From contig JAISRZ010000084.1 of NCBI GenBank assembly GCA_031273455.1, positions 1 through 64,000 on the forward strand: a DNA stretch of 64,000 bases, written 5' to 3'. Of the stretch, positions 6,975-51,675 are shown piece by piece (the stretch's first letter is position 1; each line of letters begins with the position of its first letter). The notes under the pieces were generated by a model. The model searched no databases, was not told where the DNA came from, and saw only the letters and a program-made list of their open reading frames with translations. This DNA comes from Deltaproteobacteria bacterium. GTDB lineage: Bacteria > Desulfobacterota > Desulfarculia > Adiutricales > Adiutricaceae. The position numbers and the translations under genes were made by a program.

Positions 6975-7691
6975 ATGCTGAAAGCGATCTGGGACAATCT
7001 AAAGGGGCTCTATAGCCTATTGGTGGGGATGTCGATCACCGGTCGGTACTTACTAAGCCCGGTGGAAACTATCCACTACCCGCGAAAGGTGGTGGACGAC
7101 GCCATCTTAACCTCCTTTCGGGGTCCCATCCGGTTAACCTTAGGAAAAAAGAACCCCCAAGAGACCCGTTGCGTCTCCTGTCAGATGTGCGTTAAAGCTT
7201 GCCCGGGCGGTTGTTTAACGGTCACTAAAGGCGACACCAAAGCCCCTATAACTTGGCTTTACGACTTTAGCTACTGTTGTTTATGCGGGGCCTGCGTGGA
7301 AACCTGCCCAGCCGGGGCCTTGGAGTTTTCCCACAAAGTTTATTGGGTCACCTTAACCCGGGAAGAGCTGATTATGGATCTTTTAAAAGATCTTAAAACC
7401 CGCACCGCTGGCCCTAACCCTAACCCCAGCTCTAACCCTAGCCCGGCGAGCCCTCAACCTTCTAGCGTTCCTAAAGACGCGCCTAAGGCCTCGCCCGCCG
7501 CCCCAGCTAACCCGGTGGCTAGCCAGACAGCTGACCAGAAAGCTGACCAGAAAGCTGACCAGAAAGCTGGCCCAGTGGCTAGCCCAAACGGTCACCCCGA
7601 AGGGGCTAAAGCGGCCCCGAAAGACCCAGGGGCTAGCCCCAACGGTCACCCCGAAGGGGCCCCAGCGGCCTTAAAAGAGCCGGGGGTTTAA
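6975..7691 (+). CDS. nuoI: NADH-quinone oxidoreductase subunit I (NuoI) with repetitive C-terminal tail
   Basis: NuoI carries clusters N6a and N6b. Two ferredoxin motifs are intact: C66-x2-C69-x2-C72-x3-C76 and C101-x2-C104-x2-C107-x3-C111. The first 140 residues cover the whole normal domain. Residues 145-238 form a Pro/Ala/Ser/Lys-rich tail containing three tandem Ala-Asp-Gln-Lys units and two copies of an Ala-Ser-Pro-Asn-Gly-His-Pro-Glu-Gly-Ala module; such a tail is not part of the family. It may be an unstructured tether or simply expanded repeat DNA in frame. An AAGGA site precedes the start. nuoJ begins one base after the stop. Confidence 0.95.
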   Translation: MLKAIWDNLKGLYSLLVGMSITGRYLLSPVETIHYPRKVVDDAILTSFRGPIRLTLGKKNPQETRCVSCQMCVKACPGGCLTVTKGDTKAPITWLYDFSYCCLCGACVETCPAGALEFSHKVYWVTLTREELIMDLLKDLKTRTAGPNPNPSSNPSPASPQPSSVPKDAPKASPAAPANPVASQTADQKADQKADQKAGPVASPNGHPEGAKAAPKDPGASPNGHPEGAPAALKEPGV

Positions 7692-10156: not shown

Positions 10157-10456
10157 GTGCCCCCCAATGGCCCCCATGGCCCCAATGGCCCCAATGGGTT
10201 TTTAGCTAGGTTTCTAGCGGCCCAACTGACCCGCGGTCGAATTAAGTTCTGGCGGATGTTTTTCTTCGCGGTCTTAGCCGTAATCTTGGTTTTGAACCTA
10301 GTTATCGCCAACCATCACCCCCACTTTGGCCCAGACGCCAAACCCTTTTTCTGGCCCTTGTTTGGCTTGGTGGTGGGAATAGTATTGGTTATCGTGGTTA
10401 AGAAAATCATTCAGCCGCTCATTAAAAAGCCTGAGGACTACTATGGCGACCTCTAG
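10157..10456 (+). CDS. Small membrane protein inside the nuo operon
   Basis: A 99-residue protein with a short Pro-Asn-Gly-rich N-terminus (repeats of Gly-Pro-Asn), two membrane helices (about residues 32-52 and 66-86) and a charged end. The start is GTG 10157, preceded by AGGTG at a normal distance; the 3' end overlaps the following antiporter-like gene by 14 nt in another frame, which argues for a real, translationally coupled gene. I do not recognise a family. Position suggests an accessory or assembly subunit of this complex I variant, by inference only. Confidence 0.7.
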   Translation: MPPNGPHGPNGPNGFLARFLAAQLTRGRIKFWRMFFFAVLAVILVLNLVIANHHPHFGPDAKPFFWPLFGLVVGIVLVIVVKKIIQPLIKKPEDYYGDL

Positions 10457-12263
10457 TTTTCTCCATCCCTCGCTCGCCTTTTTAATGATGGCGGTCTTAC
10501 TCCCCTTCTTGCCCGGATCCAGGCGCTGGAAGTGGCTACTATTGCTTCCGCCCATCTTCGCCATTTACGCGGCCTTTAACAACCAACCCGGGGACCACTA
10601 CACCCTATCTTGGTTAGGCCAGACCTTAAAATTGGGCCACGTGGATAGCTTATCGGCCATCTTCGCCCAGGTCTTCGCCATCATGAGCTTAGCCGGGCTC
10701 ATCTATAGCCTCCACGTTAACGACAAAGGTCAGCACATCGCGGCCCTTTTGTACGTGGCCGGCGGTTTTGGTTGTCTGCTGGCGGGCGATTACTTAAGCT
10801 TATTCGCTTTTTGGGAGCTGATGAGCTTAGGCTCGACCTTTTTGGTCATGCTCAATCGGACCCGGGAATCGGTTCTCGCGGCCTTTCGGTATTTTCTTTA
10901 CCACACCTTGGGTGGGCTTATTTTATTGGCCGGGATCCTTTTAAGGTACCGTCTAACTAGCTCCTTTGACTTTGGGCCTATATCCGCCGCTGGGGCCACC
11001 TTACCGGATTGGCTCATTTTAATCGGCTTTTCGGTTAACGCGGCGGTGGTGCCTTTACACGCCTGGTTACCGGACGCTTACCCCCGAGGGACGGTGACGG
11101 GCTCGGTTTTTATGTGCGCTTTCACCACTAAAACCGCGGTCTACGTCTTGGCTCGGGCTTTTCCGGGATGGGAGATCTTAGCCATCGCCGGAACTATCAT
11201 GGCGGTGTACGGGGTCTTGTTCGCCTCCATGGAAAACAACGCCCGGCGGATCTTGTCTTACCATATCGTCTCCCAGGTCGGTTACATGGTGGCTGGCATT
11301 GGGGTGGGCGCGGCCATGACCATAAACGGGGCCGCGGCCCACGCTTACGCCCACATTCTGTATAAGGGCTTATTGTTTATGGGGGCCGGGGCGGTCTTGT
11401 ATAGCGCTGGGACCCAGAGGCTGGATGAATTGGGGGGACTGGCGGCCCGCTTACCCTGGGTCATGGTTTTGTACATGGTCGCGGCCTTGTCCATCTCCGG
11501 GGCCCCTTTGTTTAACGGCTTTGTCTCCAAAACCATGACCATCGCTGGGGCCGCGGAGGCTGGCCGAACCTGGGTGGCAATAGGCTTGGAGTTAGCCGCG
11601 GTGGGCACCTTTATCTCGGTTGGTTTAAAACTCCCCTACTTCGCCTTCTGGGGCGGGAAGCCTACGGACTATAAGCGGGAGTTACGGCCTATCCCAGCCA
11701 ACATGTACTTAGGCATGGCCATTTTAGCCTTTATGTGCTTATTACAGGGCGTTTACCCCGAGGTTCTGTATCGTTACCTGCCCTTCCCGGAGGTGGCCCA
11801 TGAGTACCATCCCTGGACGGCCTTTAACGTTTTACAAGCCTCGTCTTTATTAGGGTTCGCTGGGTTGGCCTTCTATCTTCTGAGAAAGGTTATCACCCCG
11901 CATAAGGCCTTAAACTTAGACTTTGACCTATTTTACCGGTTGATTGGCCGGGCGGTTCTCTTCTTTGTCTGCCGGCCCCTAGCTTTCTTTGATAACCTCT
12001 GGACCAACGTTTATAACGTTATTGGTTTACGGATCTTAAGGGGTTTAGGGTCTTTAACCTCCATCTTTGACCGGAAGGTCATTGACGGGGTGGTGGATGG
12101 CTCGGCTAAGGGCGTCAGGTTCATAGGCTGGGTCGGGGCCTTAGCCCAAAGCGGTCGTCTCCAAAGATACTTGGGGCTCGCGGTCATCTTGGCCTTCGCT
12201 ATCTTTTTGGTCTACTGTCTCTACGGCTCCTTTATAGGGGTCGCTATGGAGAAGACTAATTAA
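10443..12263 (+). CDS. MrpD/NuoL-like proton-conducting membrane subunit (second)
   Basis: A 606-residue antiporter-like subunit. The core (about 60-420) contains LSLFAFWELMSLGSTFLVML with the key glutamate, the SVNAAVVPLHAWLPDAYPRGTVTGSVFMCAFTTKTAVY segment with the lysine, and AYAHILYKGLLFMGAGAVLY. After residue 430 a further pair of helices and an amphipathic stretch end in a final helix (LGLAVILAFAIFLVYCLYG), as in NuoL/MrpA-type long subunits. It is the last gene before a 1.56-kb repeat block; nuoM follows that block. With the previous antiporter gene, NuoM and NuoN, the locus encodes four antiporter-like subunits, one more than canonical complex I. Confidence 0.88.
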   Translation: MATSSFLHPSLAFLMMAVLLPFLPGSRRWKWLLLLPPIFAIYAAFNNQPGDHYTLSWLGQTLKLGHVDSLSAIFAQVFAIMSLAGLIYSLHVNDKGQHIAALLYVAGGFGCLLAGDYLSLFAFWELMSLGSTFLVMLNRTRESVLAAFRYFLYHTLGGLILLAGILLRYRLTSSFDFGPISAAGATLPDWLILIGFSVNAAVVPLHAWLPDAYPRGTVTGSVFMCAFTTKTAVYVLARAFPGWEILAIAGTIMAVYGVLFASMENNARRILSYHIVSQVGYMVAGIGVGAAMTINGAAAHAYAHILYKGLLFMGAGAVLYSAGTQRLDELGGLAARLPWVMVLYMVAALSISGAPLFNGFVSKTMTIAGAAEAGRTWVAIGLELAAVGTFISVGLKLPYFAFWGGKPTDYKRELRPIPANMYLGMAILAFMCLLQGVYPEVLYRYLPFPEVAHEYHPWTAFNVLQASSLLGFAGLAFYLLRKVITPHKALNLDFDLFYRLIGRAVLFFVCRPLAFFDNLWTNVYNVIGLRILRGLGSLTSIFDRKVIDGVVDGSAKGVRFIGWVGALAQSGRLQRYLGLAVILAFAIFLVYCLYGSFIGVAMEKTN

Positions 12264-12336
12264 AGTTGGCTGGCGAAGAGCGGCTGGGGCGGAGTTGTTG
12301 GTTAAAGGGCCCTGATTAAGACTTGTCAGACTTGAG

Positions 12337-12504
12337 GGTTAAGATCAGCTGGTTAGGACCGGATAGATAAGACCGGTTGGTTAGGGTCGGCTGGTTTGGG
12401 CCGGATGGTTAGGGTCAGTTGGCTAGGACCGGATGGTTAAGACCGGCTGGTTAGAGCCAGATGGTTAAGACCAGATGGTTAGGGCCGGTTGGTTTGGACC
12501 GGAT
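12337..12504. repeat. Tandem array of twelve 14-bp units
   Basis: Twelve consecutive 14-base units of the form GGTTAGGACCGGAT (positions 3, 4, 6-10 and 13 variable), with no indel between 12337 and 12504. Because 14 is not a multiple of three, protein-coding constraint cannot explain the strict period. Confidence 0.9.
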
Positions 12505-12517
12505 TGTTAAGAGGGTT

Positions 12518-13523
12518 GTTAAAGGGTCAGTGGAGCTTGTTGGCCCGGGCGGTTCGGGCTTTGCGGTGAGGCTCATTACCCCCTAGCCTTGATAGATTAA
12601 GGCGAAGAAGGGTTGTTAAAGGGTCAATGGTTGTTGGCCAGAGCGGATCGAACTTTTCGGCGAAGCCCATTACCCCTTGCCTTGATAGGTTGAGGCGAAG
12701 AAGGGTCGTTAAAGGGTCAGTGGAGCTTGGCCGGGTGGATCGGGCTTTGCGGTGAAGCCATTATACCTAGCCTTGATAGGTTGAGGCGCAGAGGGTGGTT
12801 AAGGGTCAGTGGAGCTTGGCCGGTTGGATCGGGCTTTGCGGTGAGGCTCATTACCTCTTGCCTCGATAGATTAGGCGCAGAAGGTGGTTAAAGGTCAGTG
12901 GCGCTTGGCCAGGGCGGATCGAGCTTATCGGTAAGCCATTATCCCTAGCCTCGATAGGTTCAGGCGTAGAGGGTGGTTAAAGGGTTAGTGGAGCTTGGCC
13001 GGGCGGATCGAGCTTTTCGGTGAGGCTCATTACCCCTAGCCTTGATAGGTTCAGGCGAAGAAGGGTGGTTAAAGGGTCAATGGTTGTTGGCCGGGCGGAA
13101 CGAGCTTTTCGGTGAGGCTCATTACCCCTAGCCTTGATAGGTTCAGGCGAAGAAGGTTGTTAAAGGGTCAGTGGAGCTTGGCCGGGCGGATCGAACTTTT
13201 CGGTGAGGCTCATTACCTCTAGCCTCGATAGGTTGAGGCGCAGAAGGTGGTTAAAGGGTCAGGGGAGCTTGGCCGGGTGGCTCGGGCTTATCGGTGAGGC
13301 TCATTACCCCTAGCCTTGATAGGTTGAAGCGAAGAGGGTCGTTAAAGGGTCAGCGCTTGTTGGCCAGAGCGGATCGGGCTTCGCGGTGAAGCCATTACCC
13401 TTAGCCTGGATAGATTAGGGCGAAGAAGGTGGTTAAAGGGTCAGCGCTTGTTGGCCGGGCGGATCGGGCTTTGCGGTGAGGCTCATTATCCCTAGCCTCG
13501 ATAGGTTGAGGCGAAGAAGGGTT
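12518..13523. repeat. Tandem array of eleven units of about 91 bp, each with a small hairpin
   Basis: The landmark GTTAAAGGGTCA recurs at 12518, 12615, 12708, 12798, 12887, 12976, 13068, 13159, 13250, 13341 and 13432 (spacings 89-97). Each unit contains GGCCGGGCGGATCGGGCTT-like, GGTGAGGCTCATTACC-like and GCCT-YGATAGGTT-SAGGC segments. The last forms a GCCT/AGGC hairpin, extended to GCCTC/GAGGC in some units and with a G-T wobble in others. Confidence 0.9.
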
Positions 13524-13538
13524 TTTAAAGGTGACAAA

Positions 13539-13648
13539 CCTTGGAAGCCCAAGAAGCCGCCGAACCTTGGAAGCCCTGAAGCTGATCAGCCTTGGAAACC
13601 TTGAAGCTGACGAACCTTAACAGCCTAGAAGCCGCCCAGCCTTGACGG
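13539..13648. repeat. Short tandem array, 25-bp units
   Basis: CCTTGGAAGCC-like units start at 13539, 13565, 13590, 13615 and 13640 (partial), each followed by AAGCYG-like and GAA or CAG ends. Spacings are 26, 25, 25 and 25. Confidence 0.75.
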
Positions 13649-13670
13649 CTAAGGGCTTAAAAGCTATTAA
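13642..13670 (+). promoter_or_regulatory. Candidate sigma-70 promoter for nuoMN
   Basis: TTGACG, a 17-nt spacer and TATTAA lie about 155 nt before nuoM. The -35 differs from consensus at one base and the -10 at two. A promoter here would allow nuoMN to be expressed despite the repeat block upstream. Confidence 0.4.
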
Positions 13671-13824
13671 CCCCTAAAGGGCGACCTTTGAGGGATCTTT
13701 TAAAGTTAAACGCCAAAAACTAAAGGCGATAGTGGCTTAAAACCTTAAAAACGGCCCTTTTGGCCAAGTAGACAATTAACCAAAAAGAACTAAAACCGTT
13801 TACCCCAAAAATGGACGCGCAATA

Positions 13825-15858
13825 ATGGATTCCAGCCTTAACTACCCGGTTCTCTCCGTCTTGACCTTCTGGCCGTTGGTCGCGGCCATACTATTGGTCT
13901 TCGCCCGCTCGGAGCGGGCCACGCGGATCTGGACCCTCATCGCCTCTCTCATTGAAGTCGCTTTGGCTTGGCCATTACTCGCCTTTCAGAAGACCAGCGA
14001 CTTCCAGTTCCTGGAAAGCTTGCCCTGGGCGCCCGAGTGGGGGTTAACCTATAGCTTAGGGGTGGATGGGATTAGCGTCCTCATGGTCTATCTCTCCATC
14101 CTGACCTTGCCCGTCTGCGTTTTGTGCTCCTGGACTTACATTGGGCGTCGGGTTAAAGAGTTCCATGTGGCCCTGTTGTTAATGACCACCGCTTGCGTGG
14201 GGGTCTTTTCGGCCTTGGACCTCGTTTTGTTCTATGTCTTCTGGGAAGCCTTGCTTATCCCCATGTACCTCATGATCGCCATCTGGGGCGGGGACGACCG
14301 GCGTTACGCCTCCATTAAGTTCTTCTTGTACACCTTAGCTGGCTCCACCTTACTTCTAGTGGCCATCGTGGCCCTAAGAATCAAAGCGGGCACCTTTTAT
14401 ATCCCTGACCTTATGGTCACCCAGTTCCCCTTCAAGTTCCAGTACTGGATCTTTTTGGCTTTCTTTATCGCCTTCGCCATTAAGGTCCCCATGTTCCCCT
14501 TCCACACCTGGTTGCCCGCGGCCCACGTCCAAGCCCCGGCGGCGGGTAGCGTGATCTTAGCCGCGGTCCTCTTGAAGATGGGGACTTACGGGTTCTTAAG
14601 GTTTTCCTTGCCCATGGCCCCAGCGGCCAGTCTCGAATTCGCCCCTATAATGATCGCCATCTCCGTGGCCTCTATCCTCTACGGCGGGGCCATCGCCTTG
14701 GGCCAAAGCGACATTAAAAAGCTGATCGCCTACTCCTCGGTGGCTCACATGGGCTTTGTGACTTTGGGCATCTTTGTCTTTAGCGTCAAAGGGGTTCAAG
14801 GGGCCATCTTTCAGATGCTTAACCACGGCATCATCACTGGGGCTCTCTTTACCCTAGTGGGGGCGGTTTACGAGCGGAGTCACTCCAGGGACATCGCTAA
14901 AAACTTAGGCTTAGGTAAGTACTTACCGGCCTTTATGTTCTTCTGGGGGCTTTTTGGCTTAGCCTCCTTTGGCTTTCCCGGGACCAATGGCTTTGTGGGG
15001 GAGTTTTTGGTCATCGCCGCCGCCTTTGAGGAGAGCGTGGCCATAGGTCTTTTAGTCATCCCCGGGGCTATGCTAGCCGCGGCTTACATTCTAAAAGTCA
15101 CCTTAAAAATGGCTTGGGGTCAACCAGCCTCGCCCCAAGGGCGCGGCTGGAAGGATCTGAAGAAAAAAGAGTGGGCTTACTTGGCTCTGCCAGCGGTTTT
15201 GGTCATTTACCTCGGTTTGGCCCCGAGCGCGGTTTTAAACATCATCACCCCCAGCGTGGAAAGCGCGGTCGCGGGCTTCCATATCCGAAAAGCCTTAGCG
15301 GACCCGGTTATCGCGGAGGAAGACTTAAAACCAGTCACTAAAGCGAAGGCCACTAAAGAGACCGCCACCGCTCAAGAGACTGTCGCCGCTCAAGAGACTG
15401 TCGCCACTCAAGAGACCGCCGCTCAAGAGACCGTCGCCACTAAAGAAACCGCCCCGGATCTTAGCTTAGACGTTAATAACGTTAAAGCCGCGAGCGACTT
15501 AAACCCCGTTAAGACGACCTGGTTAAAGACGTCTTTGACGGAGCCTTTAACGCTAAGCCACGGGGTCTTAAACCCCGCTAAAAGCGGCCCTTATTCGCCC
15601 GCCACGGCCTTTAATAACCTTAACCAAGTGGATTACTACTCGCTAACCCTAGATTACGCCGTTGGAGCTGATTTTAACGGTCTTAACGGCTTTAACGGTC
15701 TTAACCCGGAGGTTAGCTGGCTTAACCCGGAGATTAGCTCGCTAGCGAGTTTCAGGGCCAAGCGACTTAATCGACAACTGGACTACCTTGTGGACTATAA
15801 AGGCGCCTTCAGTCAGAAGGGCGGTTTAACCGAGGAGCTGACCCATGAGCGCTCTTAA
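13825..15858 (+). CDS. nuoM: NADH-quinone oxidoreductase subunit M (NuoM) with long C-terminal extension
   Basis: NuoM is an antiporter-like pump subunit. Conserved features are LVLFYVFWEALLIPMYLMI (helix-5 glutamate), FAIKVPMFPFHTWLPAAHVQAPAAGSVILAAVLLKMGTYGF (helix-7/8 lysines), SVAHMGFVTLGIF and FLVIAAAFEES. The normal domain ends near residue 480. Residues 480-677 are an extra, hydrophilic tail of about 200 residues rich in Thr-Ala-Gln-Glu-Thr repeats (about 505-545) and Asn-Gly-Leu/Phe motifs (about 610-630). Typical NuoM is about 500 residues. The tail has no recognisable domain. It overlaps nuoN by 14 nt. Confidence 0.94.
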   Translation: MDSSLNYPVLSVLTFWPLVAAILLVFARSERATRIWTLIASLIEVALAWPLLAFQKTSDFQFLESLPWAPEWGLTYSLGVDGISVLMVYLSILTLPVCVLCSWTYIGRRVKEFHVALLLMTTACVGVFSALDLVLFYVFWEALLIPMYLMIAIWGGDDRRYASIKFFLYTLAGSTLLLVAIVALRIKAGTFYIPDLMVTQFPFKFQYWIFLAFFIAFAIKVPMFPFHTWLPAAHVQAPAAGSVILAAVLLKMGTYGFLRFSLPMAPAASLEFAPIMIAISVASILYGGAIALGQSDIKKLIAYSSVAHMGFVTLGIFVFSVKGVQGAIFQMLNHGIITGALFTLVGAVYERSHSRDIAKNLGLGKYLPAFMFFWGLFGLASFGFPGTNGFVGEFLVIAAAFEESVAIGLLVIPGAMLAAAYILKVTLKMAWGQPASPQGRGWKDLKKKEWAYLALPAVLVIYLGLAPSAVLNIITPSVESAVAGFHIRKALADPVIAEEDLKPVTKAKATKETATAQETVAAQETVATQETAAQETVATKETAPDLSLDVNNVKAASDLNPVKTTWLKTSLTEPLTLSHGVLNPAKSGPYSPATAFNNLNQVDYYSLTLDYAVGADFNGLNGFNGLNPEVSWLNPEISSLASFRAKRLNRQLDYLVDYKGAFSQKGGLTEELTHERS

Positions 15859-17460: not shown

Positions 17461-17691
17461 TGGCCAGGAACTGAAGGGAACCATGAGGGAATAGAGCCTA
17501 TTAGATAACTGAGCCACAGCCATACCTCGGAACCCCCCCGGTGAACCCCAGTTGGCCGGAGTCGGTCATTAAGGACCAAGCCTTGAAGGTTGGGTTAAAA
17601 GGCTGGAATAGCCCCCTGTGGGTTAAGAGCCAGCCAGTGTTAGGCCATCCTCTTGGGGCGGTCTGAGGCTTAAATTTAGCCGTTTTTTGGG

Positions 17692-18331
17692 GACAAACTT
17701 AGCCGTCAACTCTTGGACAAACTTAGCCGTCAACTCTTGGACAAACTTAGCCGTCAACTCTTGGACAAACTTAGCCGACAACTCTCGGACAAACTTAGCC
17801 GTCAAATGGCGGACAAACTTAGCCGTCAACTCTCGGACAAACTTAGCCGTCAACTCTTGGACAAACTTAGCCGTCAAATGGCGGACAAACGAAGCCGGAC
17901 ACTGGCGGACAAACGAAGCCGGACACTGGCGGACAAACGAAGTCGGACACTGGCGGACAAACGAAGTCGGACACTGGCGGACAAACGAAGTCGGACACTG
18001 GCGGACAAACGAAGCCGGACACTGGCGGACAAACTTAGCCGTCAAATGGTGGACAAACTAAGCCGTCAAATGGCGGACAAACTTAACCGACAAATGGCGG
18101 ACAAAATAAGCCGTCAAATGGCGGACAAAATTAGCCGTCAAATGGCGGACAAAATTAGCCGTCAAATGGTGGACAAACGAAATCGTCAACTGGCGGACAA
18201 AATTAGCCGTCAACTGGCGGACAAAATTAGCCGTCAAATGGCGGACAAACTAAGCTGTCAAATGGCGGACAAACTAAGTTGGCCACTATCGGACAAGTAA
18301 AGTAGACAACTGTTGGACAAACGAAGTCGGC
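17692..18331. repeat. Tandem array of 26 exact-length 24-bp units
   Basis: GACAAACTTAGCCGTCAA-type units recur every 24 bases from 17692 to 18316 (26 intervals, 624 bases, no indels), with a partial copy at the end. Subfamilies are clustered: ACTCTTG-ending units first, then GAAGCCGGACACTGGCG-type, then ATGGCG-ending units, indicating successive local expansions. Because the period is divisible by three and contains no stop in several frames, long open frames appear on both strands, for example 17713-18300 on the plus strand with an octapeptide of the Asp-Lys-Leu-Ser-Arg-Gln type. That frame has only a TTG start, no ribosome site and a stop just upstream, so coding is doubtful. Confidence 0.92.
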
Positions 18332-29941: not shown

Positions 29942-30413
29942 GGACTTAATCCATATTTTAGGCGTTCTTAAGACTGGAAGTGCCCTTAGAAACGCCAGCC
30001 CTTTTTGGGGTGAATCTGACTAAGCTGATAAGCTGAGATCAATTCTGAGCATAAAATAGTAAAATAGCCTTGGCCTTACAAGATAGACCCCTTTTTGGCC
30101 CCCTTAAACACCCCTAAAAGTGGGTGTAGAGCCACAAAGTGGGAGTAGAGCCCTTAACCCGCGCTTACCCCTTTTACCTAGCCAGAGTTTACAAGTTATC
30201 TTGAGAGAAAACAGTAACTCATTAAAATTATTGAATTTTTTTGAGTTGTCTTGTAGCTAAACCCTTTCCTATTTCCGGGCGTATCTTCTTAGATCGTACT
30301 CCGCGATATACGTTGCGATGGGAAGTGAAATTTCGCAAAAAACCGGAACAGCTAAAAACCGGAACCACTTTCGATTTTTCGTGTCGCTATTTTGCGCTAT
30401 TTTGCTCTTCCCC

Positions 30414-30452
30414 TTGACAGGTACCTGTTGACAGGTACCTTTGACAGGTACC
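30414..30452 (+). promoter_or_regulatory. Three direct copies of TTGACAGGTACC
   Basis: TTGACAGGTACC occurs at 30414, 30428 and 30441 (spacing 14 and 13). Each contains a -35-like TTGACA and the palindrome GGTACC. Clustering at the edge of the AT-rich AAA ATPase region suggests an iteron- or operator-like binding site. Confidence 0.45.
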
Positions 30453-30703
30453 TTGATATGTTGATAAGTGATAATATAAAGCAAAACAAGAATTAATTAT
30501 TCTATTTAATTTAAATCTTAGCTATAACACTGTATAAAAAATATTTTTTTATAAATATTGTATTTTATATCTAAATATAAGCAAAAAAATTTTTAATTAT
30601 AAGTTTGTTTACGTTTTTAAAGGTAATTTTTAATAGTTTTTTTTAATTTTCAACTAATAATAGATTTTATTTTTGTATTTACTTTGTATTAGAGAAAAAT
30701 TTT

Positions 30704-31759
30704 ATGTTTACAAAAATTGATCTAAAAAATTTTAAATGCTTTTCTGAATTTTCTATTGATAATTTTAGGCAAATTACATTAATTTCTGGCGCAAACAATG
30801 CTGGTAAAACAACATTATTAGAAGCGATTCATTTAGCTTATTCTTCTTTAATACCAAATATATTTTTTGATATTAATATCACAAGATATAATAGAGAAAT
30901 TGTCTATTCTCCTATGTTTTTATGGGAGCATTTATTTTCTAAAACAAATACAAATAGCTCTATAATTATATCAACTAACGAAAAAGACTCTACTAATCAG
31001 GTTAAAATATTTAAAAAAGCACTATCAAACACATTTTTTAACGAAACACATAAGATATCACCTATTATTCGCCTTGATAGATTGAATAATTATTCCCTTG
31101 TCTGTGAACATACTTTGGAAAATGAAACTAAAGAAGGTATATACACTGCTAATGAAAATTGTATTACTTTAAACACACCCTATAACAATTTTGCGAATAA
31201 AATATTTTCTGTTTATTTACCGGCTAACTCTCAATTTAAAATTGATATTTTACTAAATTGGTTTGACTATCTTCAATTAAATGGCAAAAAAGCAAATTTA
31301 ATTTCTATTTTAAAAAAAATAGATAGTAATATTTGCGATATTTTTGTAATTAATCAATCTGAAAAACCTAGTATCATTTGCTATAGTGATAATATTGGAT
31401 CATTACCGCTTAAATCATTAGGCGGTGGTTTAAATAGACTATTTTTATATGCGTTAGCAATTATTTCTAATCCTAATAGCATAATATTAATTGATGAGAT
31501 TGATAATAGTTACCGTTATGATTTTATAAAAGATTTTTGGACAATAATTATCGAACTCGCAGTTGATTATAATTGCCAAATTATCGCGACTACGCATAGC
31601 TATGAATGTATAAATGGCGCTTTTGACGCCTCAAAATCTTTTGAAAATAAATATTTATCTTTCATAAGAATTGATAATAATGACCAAATACCCAGAGCGG
31701 TCAGCTACACCGATGATGACTTAGAATTTGCGGTAAAAAGGAATTTTGAAATTCGTTAA
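30704..31759 (+). CDS. AAA-family ATPase (OLD/ABC-like P-loop protein)
   Basis: A 351-residue cytoplasmic ATPase of the AAA_15/AAA_21 type. The N-terminal strand and Walker A read KIDLKNFKCFSEFSI and GANNAGKTTLLEAIH (about residues 28-42); the C-terminal half has the signature-like SLKSLGGGLNRLFLYALAII, Walker B IILIDEIDN and IIATTHSYECI with the switch histidine. Such proteins often pair with a TOPRIM/DUF3226 or DUF4435 partner in overcoming-lysogenisation or PARIS-like defence pairs. A degraded partner-like frame follows eight bases downstream. The gene is very AT-rich, unlike pfk, pointing to horizontal acquisition. Defence function is inferred. Confidence 0.8.
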   Translation: MFTKIDLKNFKCFSEFSIDNFRQITLISGANNAGKTTLLEAIHLAYSSLIPNIFFDINITRYNREIVYSPMFLWEHLFSKTNTNSSIIISTNEKDSTNQVKIFKKALSNTFFNETHKISPIIRLDRLNNYSLVCEHTLENETKEGIYTANENCITLNTPYNNFANKIFSVYLPANSQFKIDILLNWFDYLQLNGKKANLISILKKIDSNICDIFVINQSEKPSIICYSDNIGSLPLKSLGGGLNRLFLYALAIISNPNSIILIDEIDNSYRYDFIKDFWTIIIELAVDYNCQIIATTHSYECINGAFDASKSFENKYLSFIRIDNNDQIPRAVSYTDDDLEFAVKRNFEIR

Positions 31760-31767
31760 AATTAGTT

Positions 31768-31978
31768 ATGAATAAAATAGAAGACAGAAAAAATATTGAG
31801 TTTAATAAGTCTCATTTAATTGTTTGTGAATTATATAGATAATAAAATATTTATTATAGCTATACTAAATTATTTTAAAAATCAAAAAGATAACTTTAAG
31901 GATGAATTATGCGATATTCATGTTGTAGAGGCGCAAGGAATTAAGAAATTAGGGCTTGTTTTAAAGAAACATTCTTGA
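31768..31978 (+). pseudogene. Broken and truncated partner gene of the AAA ATPase (possible TOPRIM-type)
   Basis: ATG 31768 opens a frame (KNIEFNKSHLIVCELYR) that stops after 24 codons; the adjacent plus frame, entered at about 31827, continues (DNKIFIIAILNYFKNQ, DIHVVEAQGIKKLG) to TGA 31976-31978. Together they read like the start of the TOPRIM-like proteins that follow such ATPases, in which a HLIVCEG-x-D-x-F helix leads to a VVEAQG strand. A small indel has shifted the frame and the C-terminal part is missing. The family assignment is tentative because only about 70 residues remain. Confidence 0.5.
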
Positions 31979-32209
31979 TAGGCTTTTAAAGGCTTATTGA
32001 AACTACCTCGATCTCGCGTAGAGCGTAGAGCCCAACCTCTTTTCAAAAAATTATGGTGTTCTATTTTACTTAACATATCGCCCTATATATAAGATAATTA
32101 ATAACTTAAAGAAAAGCGAATATTGTATTGACACTTTATTTTATAGTGATAATATATTAATAGCATCAAAATAATTAATCAGTATTTCACTTAAATTAAA
32201 AAATTATAA

Positions 32210-33289
32210 TCATTTAAAAACAATAAATCTGCGAAATAAATAATTAAAGCAAAAACATAAACCAATAGATATACTTTTAGCAATAATATTATTTACACCG
32301 CAGTTTATAAAAAAAGAAGTAAATAAAATATCTAATAAACAAACTACTGCAACGCAAGCAATATAAACTAATAGTTCAATATATCCTTTCCACCATCTAG
32401 ATAAATGTTTAAATATTAAAATAATACAAAGTAAATAATTACATAAAGCAGCTAAAGCGAGGGCAATTATGATTGTGTATAAAAACTCACAATAATTAAT
32501 TAATACAGAAAATGTTATAATATTAGTCAAAGCACTAAGACTATTTATAATAAAATAAAGCAAAATGTGCATCGGCAAGGGCGCCCGGTAAGCCCCATAG
32601 TGTAAAATACAATAAATTGCCCTTAACCCATCCAGCCAGCCAATTTTTTTTCCTTCTTCATAGGAGCGGGGATTGTAGGAAATAGCGCATTCATATACTC
32701 TGCACTTGTTTTCGGAAATTAAAGCGGTAATTTCTGGTTCAAACCCAAATCTATTTTCTTTGAATTGCGGAGCTAATTTTTGTATAACATCCTTTTTAAA
32801 AAGTTTATAACATGTTTCCATATCTGTAATACCAAGATCTGTAAACATATTAGAAAAAAAAGTCAGAAATTTATTCATACAAGTGTGCCAAAAATAAAGT
32901 ATCCGGCGAGTTTCAGGTTGTAAATAGCGTGATCCGTAGACGACGTCCGCAACGCCATTTTTTAATGGCTCAAGTAATTTTAAGTAATCAATAGGGTTAT
33001 ATTCAACGTCCGCGTCTTGGACGCCTACGTAATCTCCTGTGGCGCTCAAAAAGCCTGTGCGTAGGGCGGCTCCTTTGCCCATGTTTACTTCATGCTTCAA
33101 AACTTTAACTTCTGGATATCGCTTTTCTAGATTATAAGCGATGTTTAAACTATTATCCTTAGAGCAATCATCAACTATTATTAATTCTAAGTTAATATTA
33201 TGATTTTTAAGTTCCATAATACGTTGAATACATTGTTCTAATGTATTCTCTTCATTGTAGCATGGTATTATTAGTGATAAATTTTCCAT
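32210..33289 (-). CDS. GT2 glycosyltransferase fused to a GtrA-like membrane domain
   Basis: Residues 1-235 are a GT-A fold glycosyltransferase of the dolichol-phosphate-mannose synthase/GtrB type: LSLIIPCYNEENTL, IIVDDCSKDN, GKGAALRTGF, VQDADVEYNP with the metal-binding D-x-D, and GFEPEITALI. Residues 240-359 form a four-helix GtrA-like domain (PMHILLYFIINS through FNYLFRRFIVFK). The fusion would charge polyprenyl phosphate with a sugar in the cytoplasm and help it cross the membrane. It is the last gene of the uxs-ugd operon. The 3' half is more AT-rich than the 5' half. Confidence 0.85.
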   Translation of the reverse strand: MENLSLIIPCYNEENTLEQCIQRIMELKNHNINLELIIVDDCSKDNSLNIAYNLEKRYPEVKVLKHEVNMGKGAALRTGFLSATGDYVGVQDADVEYNPIDYLKLLEPLKNGVADVVYGSRYLQPETRRILYFWHTCMNKFLTFFSNMFTDLGITDMETCYKLFKKDVIQKLAPQFKENRFGFEPEITALISENKCRVYECAISYNPRSYEEGKKIGWLDGLRAIYCILHYGAYRAPLPMHILLYFIINSLSALTNIITFSVLINYCEFLYTIIIALALAALCNYLLCIILIFKHLSRWWKGYIELLVYIACVAVVCLLDILFTSFFINCGVNNIIAKSISIGLCFCFNYLFRRFIVFK

Positions 33290-33361
33290 AATATTTAACA
33301 GCCAATGATGTGTATTAAATTATAAACGACTAGGTCGTTCTAAATTTTACGAAGGATCTTG

Positions 33362-33400
33362 ACTATACCCTGACGAGGACTGACATCTCGCTGGTATAGT
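33362..33400. repeat. Inverted repeat between the GT2 gene and the 662-residue membrane protein gene
   Basis: ACTATACC and GGTATAGT flank a 23-base interior that itself contains CGAG/CTCG. It could form a hairpin in the intercistronic RNA; there is no T-run. Confidence 0.4.
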
Positions 33401-33431
33401 GCCGTAATAGTGCTACATACAAATAACTTAA

Positions 33432-35411
33432 TCATATAAACATTTTAAATGCCATATATATATTATTTATATTAGCGTAATCAAATGGTATATAACCTTG
33501 TATAATTCCTTTTAGAAATACTAAATTTATTATTACCAAAATAATAAGTATTGTTGTAAATATTTTTAGACTATTTCGTAATATAAAATTTTTCTTCTTA
33601 GATATTTGTGATAAATAATTAAAATTTATAATCAATCCAATGGCTAATAATCCGAGAATATCAGCGTATTCTCTTTGCCCAAAACTTCCACCATACCACC
33701 ACCAACTCCAACTGGAACACATGTATATCTTAAATAACAAGAAAATAAATAATGAAAATCTCCATTTACTAGCTAAAGGATCTTTTATAAATATTGCTAA
33801 GTAACCAAATAACCATAATGGTGTCCAAAAAAATAATCCTTTATGAACACTAAATGTAAAATTAAGAATTTGCGGATTTGTCCAATTAAAAAATTGACCA
33901 GATTCGCTATATAAATTGATTAACCATCTACCTGTATGTGTATACCACCAATACGCTTGAGGAAAAAATGCTACTAACGATACAAATAATGATATAATAA
34001 AGTATGGCAAATATTTAAATAATCTTTGCTTTATTTCATTTAAATCTTTCACATTATACAATAAAAACACTATAACAAATAAACAATTTTGCAATCTTGT
34101 CATTGTTATTATTCCAATAAGAATTCCTATAAGAAGAGAATAATAAAATTTTATTTTTCCTTCTAATGAATAAAAAACTGGAATTAAATATAAAAATATT
34201 GAAAGTAAAGCGAAAGAATAAATATGAGTATAATTTAACCCCCAAGAGCCTGAAGCATAAAATAATAAATTTGTTCCAAATATAATACACAAAATAATTA
34301 TAATTCTATTTTTATAATTTGTTAAATTATAAATCAATTTATAAATAAAATAAATACCTATTATAAAATAAAAAGCTGATGATATAGCGCTGAAAAGTTG
34401 AAATATATCATTTAAACCTTCTCTAAGATGGAGCGAGGCTAAATTGCTGATTGAACGAGCCATAAGAAAAAATGGCGTCTCCAGAAGGGCGACACCAATT
34501 GGATATACATTCCCAACGCGACCGTTTTCCAGATTTACGGAAGTCGCTGCGCCTACAGCCTGAAATCCTTCAATAAAGATCTCCTGAAGATATAAATAAT
34601 AGCCAGCTCCATCGTTCGTTATAAATATTCTTTGAGCGGAGTTTGATCGAGGAGTATAGGGAACGATACCTATAGGAGTAAAATCAACAATAAAATAGCA
34701 CGATAATCCACATAAAATTAGTATAAATTTAACTTTATTACCTTTAGTGTAAATAAATAATAATAAAGATAATATAAATATAATAAAAAGAATTGTATCA
34801 AGTGTTTTTATCAAAAAATTAGAAAATAATTTCTTTTGTACTGGATAATATGGCGCGGAAAAAGATAACCAACCTTGAGCCTCGGAACTGTCGCCTTTTG
34901 TAATTATTCTAAATTTAAATAATGTATTAGGTGATAAATTTATAATTTGAGTGTTGTAATATAATCTACTAACACCATGAACTGGTAATTGATAAATTTG
35001 ATTATTTGCGCCTTCAATAAATATTTGTAGTTCTTCAGCATTATTTTTTAAATAATGATGTCCTAGCCATCCCCCTATATCAACGGCAAAATCTTTATCC
35101 GCTATATACCATGGGGACTTAAATGACCCTTTAAATCTACCGTTAACAAATTTTGAAGAATAATAGGTTCTCTGATCATCGATTGTTATAAAACTTTCGT
35201 TAATATTTGTGTCGCTATCATCTGCAATTGTGACCTGTTGAGGTGGTACAATTGACTGTAAATGTAAAATATAAAGGCATAGCAATAATAACAAACATAA
35301 AACAGCTATATACAATAATTTATTATCTATATATTCAATAAAACGAATACTATTGTCTTTTATAAGCTTCTTTTTATTAATTACAGTTGAATTAGAAATA
35401 ATATTTCTCAT
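33432..35411 (-). CDS. Large multispanning membrane protein, probable GT-C glycosyltransferase
   Basis: About 659 residues from ATG 35411. One N-terminal helix (about 35-52), an extracytoplasmic region to about residue 195 (with FKSPWYIADKDFAVDIGGWLGHHYL, resembling a beta-rich domain), then about eleven helices. The stretch SYFGQREYADILGLLAIGL-like (WWYGGSFGQREYADI) near residue 590 resembles motifs of GT39/ArnT-like lipid-linked sugar transferases. It could use the polyprenyl-phosphate sugar made by the neighbouring GT2-GtrA protein. The family is not firmly recognised, and the catalytic Asp/Glu of the first loop was not identified. Confidence 0.65.
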   Translation of the reverse strand: MRNIISNSTVINKKKLIKDNSIRFIEYIDNKLLYIAVLCLLLLLCLYILHLQSIVPPQQVTIADDSDTNINESFITIDDQRTYYSSKFVNGRFKGSFKSPWYIADKDFAVDIGGWLGHHYLKNNAEELQIFIEGANNQIYQLPVHGVSRLYYNTQIINLSPNTLFKFRIITKGDSSEAQGWLSFSAPYYPVQKKLFSNFLIKTLDTILFIIFILSLLLFIYTKGNKVKFILILCGLSCYFIVDFTPIGIVPYTPRSNSAQRIFITNDGAGYYLYLQEIFIEGFQAVGAATSVNLENGRVGNVYPIGVALLETPFFLMARSISNLASLHLREGLNDIFQLFSAISSAFYFIIGIYFIYKLIYNLTNYKNRIIIILCIIFGTNLLFYASGSWGLNYTHIYSFALLSIFLYLIPVFYSLEGKIKFYYSLLIGILIGIITMTRLQNCLFVIVFLLYNVKDLNEIKQRLFKYLPYFIISLFVSLVAFFPQAYWWYTHTGRWLINLYSESGQFFNWTNPQILNFTFSVHKGLFFWTPLWLFGYLAIFIKDPLASKWRFSLFIFLLFKIYMCSSWSWWWYGGSFGQREYADILGLLAIGLIINFNYLSQISKKKNFILRNSLKIFTTILIILVIINLVFLKGIIQGYIPFDYANINNIYMAFKMFI

Positions 35412-35576
35412 AAAAACCAACCAATCGTTAAAAAATAAACAAAATTAATAAACTATTATTAAGATAATATGAATATATTAGAAAATATATCTTCACAAAA
35501 ATCTAATAAACTGAAAAATCTAGAAAGACAATATATCGTAATTATTATATAATTATCAATTTATTTCATCAAATTA

Positions 35577-36896
35577 TTAACCTATCTGATAGTATTTAAA
35601 CCCAATTTTTTCTATTTGTATTTTATTATACTGATTTCTTCCATCGAAAATAATATGTTGTTTCATTAATTTTATCATTTCATCAAAATCAGGACAGGAA
35701 AATTCTTTCCATTCAGTGATTAAAAGAAGCGCGTCTACACTTTTTATCGCGTCATATTTACTATTATAGTATTCTATATTATAATTATTTTTAAAATAGT
35801 ATTTTTTTGCTATTTCAATTGATTTAGGGTCATAAACTTTTAATTTAGCTCCTAAAGAAGTAAGTTTATTGATAATCTCAATTGACGGAGCTTCTCGCAT
35901 GTCATCAGTGCCAGGTTTGAACGCCAATCCCCAAATTCCCAGACAAATATGGTTTAACTTAGCTCCGAAGCGCTTTATAACTTTCTCAGCTAGAACTAAT
36001 TTTTGGTTTTGGTTGACAAGCTCCACAGATTCAAGAAGTCGCGGTGTGTACCCGTTTTCATTAGCGGTGTGGATCAATGCCTGAACGTCTTTGGGGAAAC
36101 AACTACCGCCATAGCCGCAACCAGGGTAAATATAAGAATATCCGATACGGGAATCGCTACCAATCCCTATACGAACTTTATTGACGTCAGCGTGGACTAT
36201 TTCGCAAATGTTAGCTATTTCATTCATAAACGAAATTTTTGTGGCTAAAAAAGCGTTTGAAGCGTACTTTGTCATTTCCGCTGAATTATTATCCATTATT
36301 AATAAATTATTGCTTTTAATTGTAAAATGAGCATATAATTCTTTCATTACAGCAATCGCATCTTCATTACTGGAGCCAATAACCACCCGATCAGGCTTTA
36401 AAAAATCGTTTAACGCGGCCCCTTCCCTTAAAAATTCAGGATTGGAAATAACATCCACTTTTAAATCTTTTTCCCGTAATTTAAGTTCAGCGTGTATTGT
36501 TTGGCGAACTAATTCGGACGTTCCAATAGGGACAGTCGATTTGTTAATTACGTACAAATTCTTTTCCGTTAAGCGACCAATTTCCTTGGCCACCTCTAAG
36601 ACATGGGAAAGATCAGCTCGTCCATCCTCCGCCTGAGGAGTGCCTACAGCTATAAAGCATAAGTCACATCGAAACAGAGCGACTTTTAGATCAGTCGTAA
36701 AAGATAGTGAGCCTTTGGATAAGTTATTCTTAATAACTTCTTCTAATCCTGGTTCATAAATAGGAAGTTTGCCGTCATTTAAGATTTCTATTTTGTTTTT
36801 ATCCGAATCAACGCAAATAACCTGGTTTCCCATTTCCGAGAACCCTGCCCCACACACGAGACCAACATACCCTGAGCCAACAACCGTTATGTTCAT
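35577..36896 (-). CDS. ugd: UDP-glucose 6-dehydrogenase
   Basis: A 439-residue cytoplasmic enzyme that oxidises UDP-glucose to UDP-glucuronate with two NAD+. It shows the NAD-binding N-terminus [55 protein letters not shown], and the catalytic cysteine in [18 protein letters not shown]-terminal [16 protein letters not shown] is typical. Its ATG overlaps the stop of the upstream decarboxylase gene (ATGA), so the two are coupled and act in sequence. Confidence 0.95.
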
Positions 36897-43475: not shown

Positions 43476-43698
43476 GAAATTTAAACAAAAAGCGGTAGTT
43501 TGGCCTTAGCGAAGGAGGTTTCTAAGCGGCAAGCTTAATGTCAATTGAAGCGATAATTTTCTTTAATCTGTAATTTCAAATTTTATTTTACTTAATAACG
43601 CTGTTTAAGTCTATAAATAGTTGTATTAATTTTATTATATATTTTTTAAGTTTTTTAATATTGTTTTATCGCAATAATAAAGCGTATTGTCTGTTTTT

Positions 43699-44205
43699 AA
43701 AGGAAGTGAGCCGTTTGCGATGGCGGAAAAGAGATCTTGTTCTTAAAGGATGTAAGCCCCTTGGCGGTCGCGGAAAAGCGACATGGTTCTTAAAGGAAGT
43801 GAGCCGCTTGGACCCCTTGGCGGTCGCGGAAAAGCGACTGGGTTCTCAAATAAAGTGAGCCACTTGGACCGCTTGACGGCGGCGGTAGAGCTACTGGGTT
43901 CTCAAATGAAGTGAGCCACTTGGACCGCTTGACGACGGAGGTAGAGCGACTGGGTTCTCAAATGAAGTAAGCCACTTGGACCGCTTGACGGCGGAGGAAA
44001 AGCGACTAAGTTCTCAAATGAAGTGAGCCACTTGGACCACTTGGCGGTCGCGGAAAAACGACTGGGTTCTCAAATGAAGTGAGCCACTTGGACCGCTTGA
44101 CGGCGGAGGTAAAGCGACTGGGTTCTCAAATGAAGTAAGCCACTTGGACGGTCGCGGAAAAGCGACCTGGTTCTTAAAGAAAGTGAGCCGCTTGGCAGTT
44201 CTTGG
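43699..44205. repeat. Tandem array of 56-bp units, nine copies
   Basis: Units of the form AAATGAAGTGAGCCACTTGG... ending GCGACTGGGTTCTC start at 43699, 43745, 43792, 43848, 43904, 43960, 44016, 44072, 44128 and 44176 (partial). Central copies are exactly 56 bases; flanking copies of 46-48 bases lack an internal GGACCGCTT-like segment. Several units contain the hairpin GGTCGC-ggaaaa-GCGACC. Confidence 0.9.
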
Positions 44206-47665: not shown

Positions 47666-49324
47666 CTATGGAGTCTTAGGTGTAGTCTTACGTGGAGTCA
47701 TAGGACTGTCCATCTGTTGACATTCGAAAACGTTATAATGATCTGTTTTATCTATTAATACAAAGTTTTTTTGAAAAGATTTTATAGTATTGACTGAAAG
47801 TAATGTTTGAGTTTGTCCTATATACGGATCGAAATACATAAAAGGAACTCCGCTTTTAGGTAAAATAAAATAATTAATTGAACAATCATTTATTTTATCC
47901 TCTAATTCAAAGTCACTATAACCAGCAAATTTTAAATCCCCAAATCCCAAATAATCAATTTGAGGTATGTCTAATAATATTCTATTATAGTATAAATAAA
48001 GCGAAGAAGTATCAGAAATTCCCATCATCACGTGTAAATATTTATTGTTTAAATATTTAACTTCTTTTATTGATTGGCTGGAGTCAGACCAATAATAAAA
48101 TAAAGCAATAAAAATAAGTACTACGTTAGCCAAACAAATAAATGATAAAACTAAGTATAATGATTGAATAACACTATGACATAGTTTAATCTTTAAATCA
48201 TGAAAAAAAGAACTAGGAATGAATTTAATAAATTTTCCTATAAAAAACGCATTCGCTGGAATTAAAGGTATTAAATGATTAACAAAAGATCCATTTTTAG
48301 ATGATGGTATGGCCAAAAGTAACTCTAAACATACTATAATAAGCAAATGAAATTTATACCTGTTCCATCCTTCTGAACCAGTAACAAATAAATATAAAAA
48401 AACAACAAATAAAGGAAATAAAAAAACAAACAAGGTTGCTAAAGCTGTAATAAACAGCATTAAATTTAATCCATGAGTAGACACTAAAGTTAATAAATCA
48501 ATATAAGAAAATAAAGAAATAGATTGATTTGTAAAAGGCAGAATACAGCCAATAAAGAAACTAATAGTATATAACAATATCTTTTTAATATTTATTTTAA
48601 AATTATCAGATGTGCAACAAAATGCAATAACAATATATATTGCCCCATGCAGCTTAATCATAGAAGAGAAACCAGATAAAAAGCCTAATATTATAAATAC
48701 TATTCCTGTGCTTTTATATTTATGAACAATAAAAATAGTTAATGCAACTAAAAATAAAAAATAAGGCTCTGCTTTTAAACAATAAACCCATGTATTAAAT
48801 TTTAATAAAAATAATAGATAAATATATGGGAAATATTGAAATAATTTGCTCTTTATATTTTTTTGCTGTGAATTTAAATTGTAAATTGTCAAGCAAACAA
48901 AAGAAACAAATATTATAAAAGATGGTATTTTTGATGATATAAAAATTGATATAGGAATTTTAATAAATATTAACAATATTAATGGTATAATTGGCCCATA
49001 TAACATAGTATTATATGGATAATATTCGTTGCTTGGTGGATATAAAGGAATATTTTTTGATAGATTTCTTGCTTCCTCAATAAATGTTTCTTCAAACGGC
49101 ACGGAAAAACTAGGAAAAAATAAGTAAATAATGAACGATAAAGTGAATAAACTTAATATAACTATATAAAAATTTTTTAATATATTTTGCGCTTTGATAA
49201 AAGAATCGTTTTTAACATATAATAACCAGCATAAATTAAAAATATAAAGCACAAACATACCTAATAGGAAGAAAATTAAATCTGCAAATACAAAATCATT
49301 AAAGGCGAAAGTTATTATATGCAT
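47666..49324 (-). CDS. GT-C-like membrane glycosyltransferase (paralogue 1)
   Basis: A 552-residue protein with about 12 membrane helices and a C-terminal extracytoplasmic domain (about 450-535). The first large loop reads SVPFEETFIEEARNLSKNIPLYPPSNEYYPYNTMLYGP, with acidic residues where GT-C transferases (GT39/GT83-like) keep catalytic Asp/Glu. It is clearly homologous over its full length to the upstream gene at 49990-51624, so this is a tandem duplication. It is the last gene of the putative lipid-linked-sugar cluster and very AT-rich. Donor and acceptor are unknown. The tail ends in a small Thr-Pro-Lys repeat. Confidence 0.75.
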   Translation of the reverse strand: MHIITFAFNDFVFADLIFFLLGMFVLYIFNLCWLLYVKNDSFIKAQNILKNFYIVILSLFTLSFIIYLFFPSFSVPFEETFIEEARNLSKNIPLYPPSNEYYPYNTMLYGPIIPLILLIFIKIPISIFISSKIPSFIIFVSFVCLTIYNLNSQQKNIKSKLFQYFPYIYLLFLLKFNTWVYCLKAEPYFLFLVALTIFIVHKYKSTGIVFIILGFLSGFSSMIKLHGAIYIVIAFCCTSDNFKINIKKILLYTISFFIGCILPFTNQSISLFSYIDLLTLVSTHGLNLMLFITALATLFVFLFPLFVVFLYLFVTGSEGWNRYKFHLLIIVCLELLLAIPSSKNGSFVNHLIPLIPANAFFIGKFIKFIPSSFFHDLKIKLCHSVIQSLYLVLSFICLANVVLIFIALFYYWSDSSQSIKEVKYLNNKYLHVMMGISDTSSLYLYYNRILLDIPQIDYLGFGDLKFAGYSDFELEDKINDCSINYFILPKSGVPFMYFDPYIGQTQTLLSVNTIKSFQKNFVLIDKTDHYNVFECQQMDSPMTPRKTTPKTP

Positions 49325-49989
49325 TATAATACCTGTTAGATAAGTAAATTAATATTTTATGTTATAATTAATTTGATGACTTAATAATAAATGTATTATA
49401 TAATAAATATCAAATTAATAATATATATATTGTTTTCTGAACCAATAAGTCCTTAAATATGTGCGCCCTAAAATGTGGTTATCCCTAGCGGCCTGATTTG
49501 AGAGGTGGAGCCTTTGGAATCTTCACCTTCTTGACACACTCTCTTGACAGACAAAGGTTTGTATTGGATCTGCCTAACTTAGGCCAGATCTTCAATATTC
49601 TGACAAAAATTTCGTCAATCTAGCCTCTCAAAACTAGCAACTGAGACATGATGTCCACGTAAAAAAGTCTATACAGCCGGAAAAATGAAAGATAATATAC
49701 TTAAATTATTAAATATTGAATATTAATTTTAGCTTTTCCTAGAAACAGGGGTTTTTACGAGGCCATCAGACCTTATTGATACTTGTCCAAAGCCTTTGTT
49801 TTGCCATACCGCCTCGCCTCCCAGGCCATTTTAAGGGTCATCTCTGGGTATACTATACATCTTGTCAGCCAAAAACACTTCCTTCCTTTGACATAGTCAA
49901 CCAGCACTGTTCAGCAGTAGAAGAGTCCAAATTTCCGCTTCAGCTCTAATGTCTCTGAGCTTGCATAGCGTTTCACACCATCAAACTAG
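49325..49989. other. Noncoding stretch between the two GT-C paralogues
   Basis: About 665 bases without a gene, AT-rich near 49325-49440 and balanced in the middle. A near-palindrome GATCTG-CCTAA-c-TTAGG-CCAGATC (49568-49594) is present. No terminator with T-run was seen, so the two genes may or may not share a transcript. Confidence 0.5.
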
Positions 49990-51624
49990 CTATGAAGTCT
50001 TAAGACTGTCCATCTTTCGACATTCGAAAACACTATAATGATCAGTTTTATCTATTAATATAAAGTTTTTTTGAAAAGATTTTATAGTATTAGTCGAAAT
50101 TAATGTCTTTTTTATCATACTATAATCATCTAAAAACATAAAAGGAACACCACTTTTCGGAAAAATAAAATAATTTATTGAACAATTTTTTATTTTTTCA
50201 TCTAATTCAAAGTCGCTATACCCGGCTAATTTTAAATCCGCATATCCCAAATAATCAAGTTGAGATGCCCCTAAATATATTCTATTATAATATAAATATA
50301 GCAATTTAGGTTCAGTAATTCCCATCATTGCATTTGAATATTTATTATTTAAAAATTTAATTTCTTTTACTGACTGATCAGAATCTGGCCAATAACTAAT
50401 AAAAGCAAAGTAAATGAGAATTACATTAATAATGCAAATAAAAGATAATACTAAATATAATGATTGAATTATACTATGACATAATTTTATTTTTATTTCT
50501 TGAAAAAATAAATTAGGAATATATATTAATAATTTACCAAATATAAATGCATTTACTGGAATTAAAGGCATTAAATGATTAATTAAAGAACCAGATTTAG
50601 CGCATGGTATAGTTATAAGAAGCTCTAAGCATATGATAATAAATAAATTAATCTTAACTTTTTTATCAATATTTGCATGTATTATAAATAAATAAATGCT
50701 AACAATAAAAATAGGCATTAAAATAACTATTAATGTTAAAAAAGCCTTAATAAAAAGCATTAATTCGATAGTATGACTAGAAAAAAATATTAAAAGGTCA
50801 ATATACGAAAATAAAGAAATAGATTGATTAGTGAAAGGTAAAAAAATACATATTATAAAACCTACAATATAAAGCAATATATTTTTAATTTTTATTGTAT
50901 AATTGTCTGAAGCACAAAAAAAAGCAATAATTATATACATTGCTCCATGTAGCTTTAACAAAGAAGATAAAGCTGATAAAACACCGAGCAATAAGAATAC
51001 TATTCCACTATTTTTGTATCTATTTATAATAAAAATAGTCAAAGAAACTAAAAATATGAAATAAGGTTCTGCTTTTACACAATATAGCCATGTACTAATT
51101 ATTAACAAATATAATAAATAATAAAAAGGAAATTTTATAAATAATTTATTTTGTATATTTTTTTGTTGCGAATTTAAACTACATATTATAAGAAATACAA
51201 ATAAAATAAATACTATAAACGATGGTATTTTAGCAGATATATATGTTTCAATTGGCAATTTAATAAATAATAATAAAATAAGAGATATAATTGGTCCATA
51301 TAATGTAGTATTATATGGATAATACTCTCCTTTTGTGGGGTATAAAGGAATATTTTTTGATAAATTCCTTGCTCCTTCGATGAATGTTTCTTCAAATGGG
51401 ACTGAAAAACTTGGAAAAAAAATGTAAACAATTGACGACAATACAAACAAAATAAATATAATTATATAAAACTTATCAATATATTTTTGTATATTAATTA
51501 ATATATTATCTTTAATATGCAATAAGAAATATAATATCAATAAATACAAAAAAAACATAAATACAGAAAAAGAAATAAAATTCGTAAATATATATTTACA
51601 AAAAGCTAATGATATTACATTCAT
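49990..51624 (-). CDS. GT-C-like membrane glycosyltransferase (paralogue 2)
   Basis: A 544-residue paralogue of the neighbouring gene. It shares the loop SVPFEETFIEGARNLSKNIPLYP, the segment NSQQKNIQNKLF, the CVKAEPYF helix, and the C-terminal domain with AGYSDFELDEKI, INYFIFPKSGVPFM and NTIKSFQKNFILIDKTDHYSVFEC. About 12 helices are predicted. It lies 52 nt downstream of the small transporter gene, suggesting it uses a flipped polyprenyl-linked sugar. Specificity is unknown. Confidence 0.75.
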   Translation of the reverse strand: MNVISLAFCKYIFTNFISFSVFMFFLYLLILYFLLHIKDNILINIQKYIDKFYIIIFILFVLSSIVYIFFPSFSVPFEETFIEGARNLSKNIPLYPTKGEYYPYNTTLYGPIISLILLLFIKLPIETYISAKIPSFIVFILFVFLIICSLNSQQKNIQNKLFIKFPFYYLLYLLIISTWLYCVKAEPYFIFLVSLTIFIINRYKNSGIVFLLLGVLSALSSLLKLHGAMYIIIAFFCASDNYTIKIKNILLYIVGFIICIFLPFTNQSISLFSYIDLLIFFSSHTIELMLFIKAFLTLIVILMPIFIVSIYLFIIHANIDKKVKINLFIIICLELLITIPCAKSGSLINHLMPLIPVNAFIFGKLLIYIPNLFFQEIKIKLCHSIIQSLYLVLSFICIINVILIYFAFISYWPDSDQSVKEIKFLNNKYSNAMMGITEPKLLYLYYNRIYLGASQLDYLGYADLKLAGYSDFELDEKIKNCSINYFIFPKSGVPFMFLDDYSMIKKTLISTNTIKSFQKNFILIDKTDHYSVFECRKMDSLKTS

Positions 51625-51675
51625 TAAATATCCTATATTAAACTGATATATATCAATTCATTAAATAGTAAGTGT

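Follow-up and report, generated by a model that had tools for sequence, protein, structure and literature searches.

The MIRU loci of Mycobacterium tuberculosis are among the known systems closest to the locus analysed here. They are minisatellites that are mostly intergenic and are thought to be transcribed within operons (PMC3635867). Our window, the whole stretch of 64,000 nucleotides that was analysed, carries tandem repeats in a comparable setting. In the spacer between two genes of the nuo operon, which encodes respiratory complex I, we find three abutting blocks with units of 14 bp (~12 copies), 91 bp (11 copies) and 25 bp (~3.6 copies). They total about 1.3 kb, and, as in bacterial minisatellites, a unit of some 10-100 bp is repeated head to tail without interruption. 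The 1,561 non-coding bases between the stop of the nuoL-like gene at 12263 and the start of nuoM at 13825 are mostly made of these arrays. The features of the spacer and its borders are:

10443..12263 (+), nuoL-like antiporter subunit (Proton_antipo_M), the upstream border, from its ORF and Pfam PF00361
12281..12309 (+), 28-base stretch similar to the 91-bp unit over its repeat boundary (GGCTGGGGCGGAGTTGTTGGTTAAAGGG), 22/28 identical
12336..12509 (+), 14-bp array, consensus TGGTTAGGGCCGGA, ~12 copies, 0 indels
12509..13520 (+), 91-bp array, 11 mosaic copies (89-97 bp), 76-92% alike by substitutions
13528..13640 (+), 25-bp array, about 4 diverged copies
13825..15858 (+), nuoM (Proton_antipo_M), the downstream border, from its ORF and Pfam

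Tandem Repeats Finder reports the 14-bp array at 12350-12509 (x 11.4, 71% match, 0% indels, score 138), the 91-bp array at 12509-13520 (x 11.1, 83% match, 3% indels, score 1260) and the 25-bp array at 13528-13618 (x 3.6, score 96). When the 14-bp array is read in phase, its start moves about one unit earlier, to 12336, which gives ~12 copies. The spacings from array to array are -1 and 7 bp. Together with a largest ORF of only 54 aa in 12264-13824, these calls bear out the preliminary description of three gene-free arrays between an antiporter-like subunit and nuoM, and we find no repeat-encoded protein. In the 91-bp array the frame shifts with each copy, as 91 is not divisible by 3. The 14-bp array differs by only 25 substitutions in 154 bases and is indeed without indels, as had been remarked. 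As an oddity this is mildly unusual at most, since 19/57 comparable non-coding array rows of the same genome also have zero indels, though only 5/29 do at <=80% match. Three perfect 14-bp copies of a unit nearly equal to that of the block (TGGTTAGGGCCAGG) are found elsewhere in the genome, at G000:C78:12090-12131.

We consider it highly probable that the block consists of neutral non-coding minisatellites, which were born and turned over in a lineage prone to repeats, through duplication, slippage and exchange within arrays. In such a history, a few dozen bases would have been duplicated by chance, via replication slippage or a repair error, to give two copies. Unequal exchange, slippage and conversion between the copies would then have raised and shuffled the copy number. 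Bases at the edge of the 14-bp array were probably incorporated into the 91-bp unit, so that one array helped to found the next, and the copies would later have diverged by point mutation. We propose that the copies persist because the spacer is under neither strong deletion pressure nor coding constraint.

The variants within the 91-bp array make exchange between its copies likely, not proven. There are 17 informative two-state sites, where 4-6 are expected under a star tree, and 75 of the 136 site pairs (55%) are incompatible with a single tree, compared to 35-37% in star simulations. Linkage within the unit falls with distance (p 0.0008), a decay that rests partly on neighbouring sites and is no longer significant when sites are thinned to >3 bases apart (p 0.17). 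It is therefore mainly the incompatibility which supports exchange, and repeated mutation can also yield incompatible sites. The similarity between copies is barely tied to their distance in the array (lag 1 permutation p 0.11). We do not claim a higher-order period of five units: among the lags, 5 ranks first in the 91-bp array and is high in the 14-bp array, where its p of 0.05 is uncorrected over lags.

The genome itself is rich in arrays. Counted with a simple ORF rule rather than a gene finder for the split into coding and non-coding DNA, and with sample sizes that differ among genomes, it has 26 arrays per 100 kb, which make up 3.6% of all bases and 9.2% of non-coding bases; outgroups of the same class have 4-12 arrays per 100 kb (0.2-0.6% of bases), and in relatives from the family the count lies between 4 and 69 per 100 kb. 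The 91-bp array has the top score among 256 arrays in 1.04 Mb of its genome. The median length of codirectional spacers is 769 bp with arrays and 105 bp without. Loss of mismatch repair and loss of SbcCD were considered as causes of this richness and rejected: MutS is found in the genome with its GDFYE motif intact, SbcD is found as well, and loss of these two therefore does not explain the arrays. The MutS domain I (MutS_I; G000:C76:33540-33869) does score low, but this does not single out the genome, since the whole family scores lower (E ~1e-28 to 1e-38, versus 1e-42 to 1e-46 in other families of the order and class).

Several other features of the window may be listed here. Downstream of nuoN, 17691-18275 holds a 24-bp x 24.4 array (GGACAAACTTAGCCGTCAACTGGC) with 90% match and 0 indels, which is open in several frames on both strands. 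Other large non-coding arrays lie at 1273-1927 (187 bp x 3.3) and 43692-44149 (56 bp x 7). In-frame repeats are found at 7523-7686, in a C-terminal extension of a NuoI-like ferredoxin subunit, and at 15349-15453, in a C-terminal extension of NuoM (677 aa); long NuoM frames also occur in some close relatives. Two low-GC islands, 30000-36000 and 48000-52000, have 22-29% GC against about 50% for the contig, and both contain large proteins without a Pfam match. Glycosyltransferase and sugar-nucleotide genes are found in the first island and its edge, and 30704-31759, in an AT-rich region, encodes an AAA ATPase similar to the defence candidates AbiLi / PDC-M38A.

The window belongs to a MAG related to Candidatus Adiutrix: judged by NuoM, its closest named relatives are MAGs that carry the labels Deltaproteobacteria and Candidatus Adiutrix, a genus that NCBI assigns to the order Candidatus Adiutricales. 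From Adiutrix, we take the host setting to be the termite gut. In 28 near relatives (L022-L049) the gene order is the same, the gap between the nuoL-like gene and nuoM measures 28-401 bp and it shares no sequence with the block. Seven of these relatives (L036, L037, L038, L040, L041, L042 and L047) carry, in the same gap, small arrays that are built from other units. In 19 more distant genomes with the gene pair in the same order the gap is 6-109 bp and holds 0 arrays. The length of the gap thus differs between species, as compared with one genome per species, and in 40 related genomes no homologue of the block was found beyond short, weak matches. Because the gap is short in relatives, the block has no homologue and the units are others, we conclude that the spacer turns over completely between species. 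In the set of papers searched, none joins Adiutrix and tandem repeats. We would only tentatively extend these observations to a wider and rather doubtful proposal, in which minisatellites are born at a raised rate in the array-rich members of the family, arrays found others at their edges, and operon spacers of central genes are fully replaced between species of one genus.

The preliminary description regarded the stacked arrays as unrelated, which is not fully right. Four flank and array segments were compared with the 91-bp unit. Compared with intergenic windows drawn at random from its own genome, the unit is better matched by a portion of the 14-bp array (p 0.01) and by the flank at 12281-12309 (p 0.004). 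Given this weak likeness of the 91-bp unit to the 14-bp array and to the sequence that precedes it, the arrays are not wholly unrelated; the 25-bp array shows no such likeness to the 91-bp unit in the same comparison. From the sequence likeness, the stretch at 12281..12309, upstream of the 14-bp array, is possibly a relic unit that has diverged, and we see a hint that the edge of the first array was taken into the second. As a candidate for a shared seed, the motif GGTTAAAGG turns up in other arrays too, yet it is a common word genome-wide, including in coding sequence, and was rejected as a specific seed.

The same likeness of the 91-bp unit to the 14-bp array and the flank speaks for a local amplification hot spot, in which arrays would actively seed new neighbours and stacking would have a mechanism of its own. 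This reading also draws on the spacing of arrays. Strong arrays (score >=90) lie <=10 bp apart in 3 pairs in 1.04 Mb where 0.06 are expected, although two of these pairs are the block itself and the third is in a locus fetched for matching the block. When all arrays are taken in an unbiased sample, a small excess is left, with 3 spacings of <=10 bp against 0.58 expected (p 0.02). On the other hand, spacers with >=2 arrays are about as frequent as under random placement (26 versus 23). With the window and the four loci chosen for matching the arrays set aside, strong arrays show 1 case within 100 bp versus 0.24 expected, which is not significant, and a second array-rich genome has 0 versus 0.94 for strong arrays at the same distance. 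A genome-wide excess of stacking, seen with all loci, was mostly gone after removing the window and the match-picked loci, and we do not retain it. The tight stacking in the block is non-random; a general excess elsewhere in the genome is not established. We regard a hot spot as possible but unlikely. The earlier suggestion that replication or recombination repeatedly amplifies sequence at this place stands in part: amplification of this kind fits the tree-incompatible variants and the array-rich genome, but a special local process is not shown, given that closely stacked strong arrays are not significantly in excess elsewhere, nor in the second genome.

It is quite improbable, in our assessment, that the arrays serve the nuo operon as a functional element, regulatory or RNA, such as one that sets the NuoL:NuoM ratio by processing, attenuation or protein binding. 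The position within the operon of a central respiratory complex would suit such an element, as would the 51 of 97 alignment columns that are invariant across the 11 copies of the 91-bp unit and the G-rich coding strand of the block (GC skew 0.31), which could form R-loops. However, no homologous sequence is found in any relative despite the kept gene order, compensatory changes occur in 0/19 predicted pairs, as opposed to what a structured RNA would show, and the DNA folding energy of the block equals that of shuffles (z 0.19). The skew does not point one way across 37 codirectional arrays (it is positive in 15 and negative in 11), and strand-biased (R-loop) expansion was rejected on this ground too. 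An Rfam search of the block gave no match, and promoter and terminator matches in the spacer are at chance level. Nor is the block a CRISPR array, as the whole 91-bp unit repeats without unique spacers. As a set of neutral minisatellites, the block is probably transcribed within the operon and has no role of its own, and it may have a spacer effect on expression.

We give very little weight to an assembly artefact, in which a short-read assembler made the copy number or the stacking: the genome (4.24 Mb) is in 157 contigs, of which the window is contig 55, contigs of related MAGs carry k119 names, and tandem repeats are known to cause assembly errors (PMC6868369), but the longest exact repeat in the block, 56 bp, is shorter than a k of 119 as taken from the names in the related MAGs, the 91-bp copies are distinguishable by their own variants, and Deltaproteobacteria bacterium Smac51, a relative whose genome is complete, also has large arrays (2.5 per 100 kb at a score >=200, 120 kb sampled). 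Repeats of 56 bp would be resolved if the window was assembled like the related MAGs, and its own assembler may differ. From the length of the longest exact repeat and from copies that are 76-92% alike, and not from long-read proof, we infer that an artefact is unlikely.

The locus shows that 1.5 kb of repeat DNA that changes fast is tolerated between two subunit genes in the operon of a central respiratory complex. The little-described, repeat-rich bacteria of this termite-gut type could be a place where the birth and turnover of minisatellites are measured.

The block resembles bacterial minisatellites and VNTR loci in its head-to-tail arrangement, its non-coding nature, a unit of tens of bases which is specific to the locus, and its diverged copies. 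It differs from typical examples in being unusually large for its own genome (11 x 91 bp) and in that three arrays abut. Like the MIRU loci, it is a tandem minisatellite which is intergenic and lies inside an operon, and the length of the MIRU unit is comparable to that of the 91-bp unit. In contrast to MIRU, whose related units are interspersed at many loci, the 91-bp unit has no other copy in its own genome: at E<=0.001 the array matches only its own locus, with short partial matches elsewhere. The block is real and large for a bacterial spacer, yet it is of a known kind, namely minisatellites in a repeat-rich genome.
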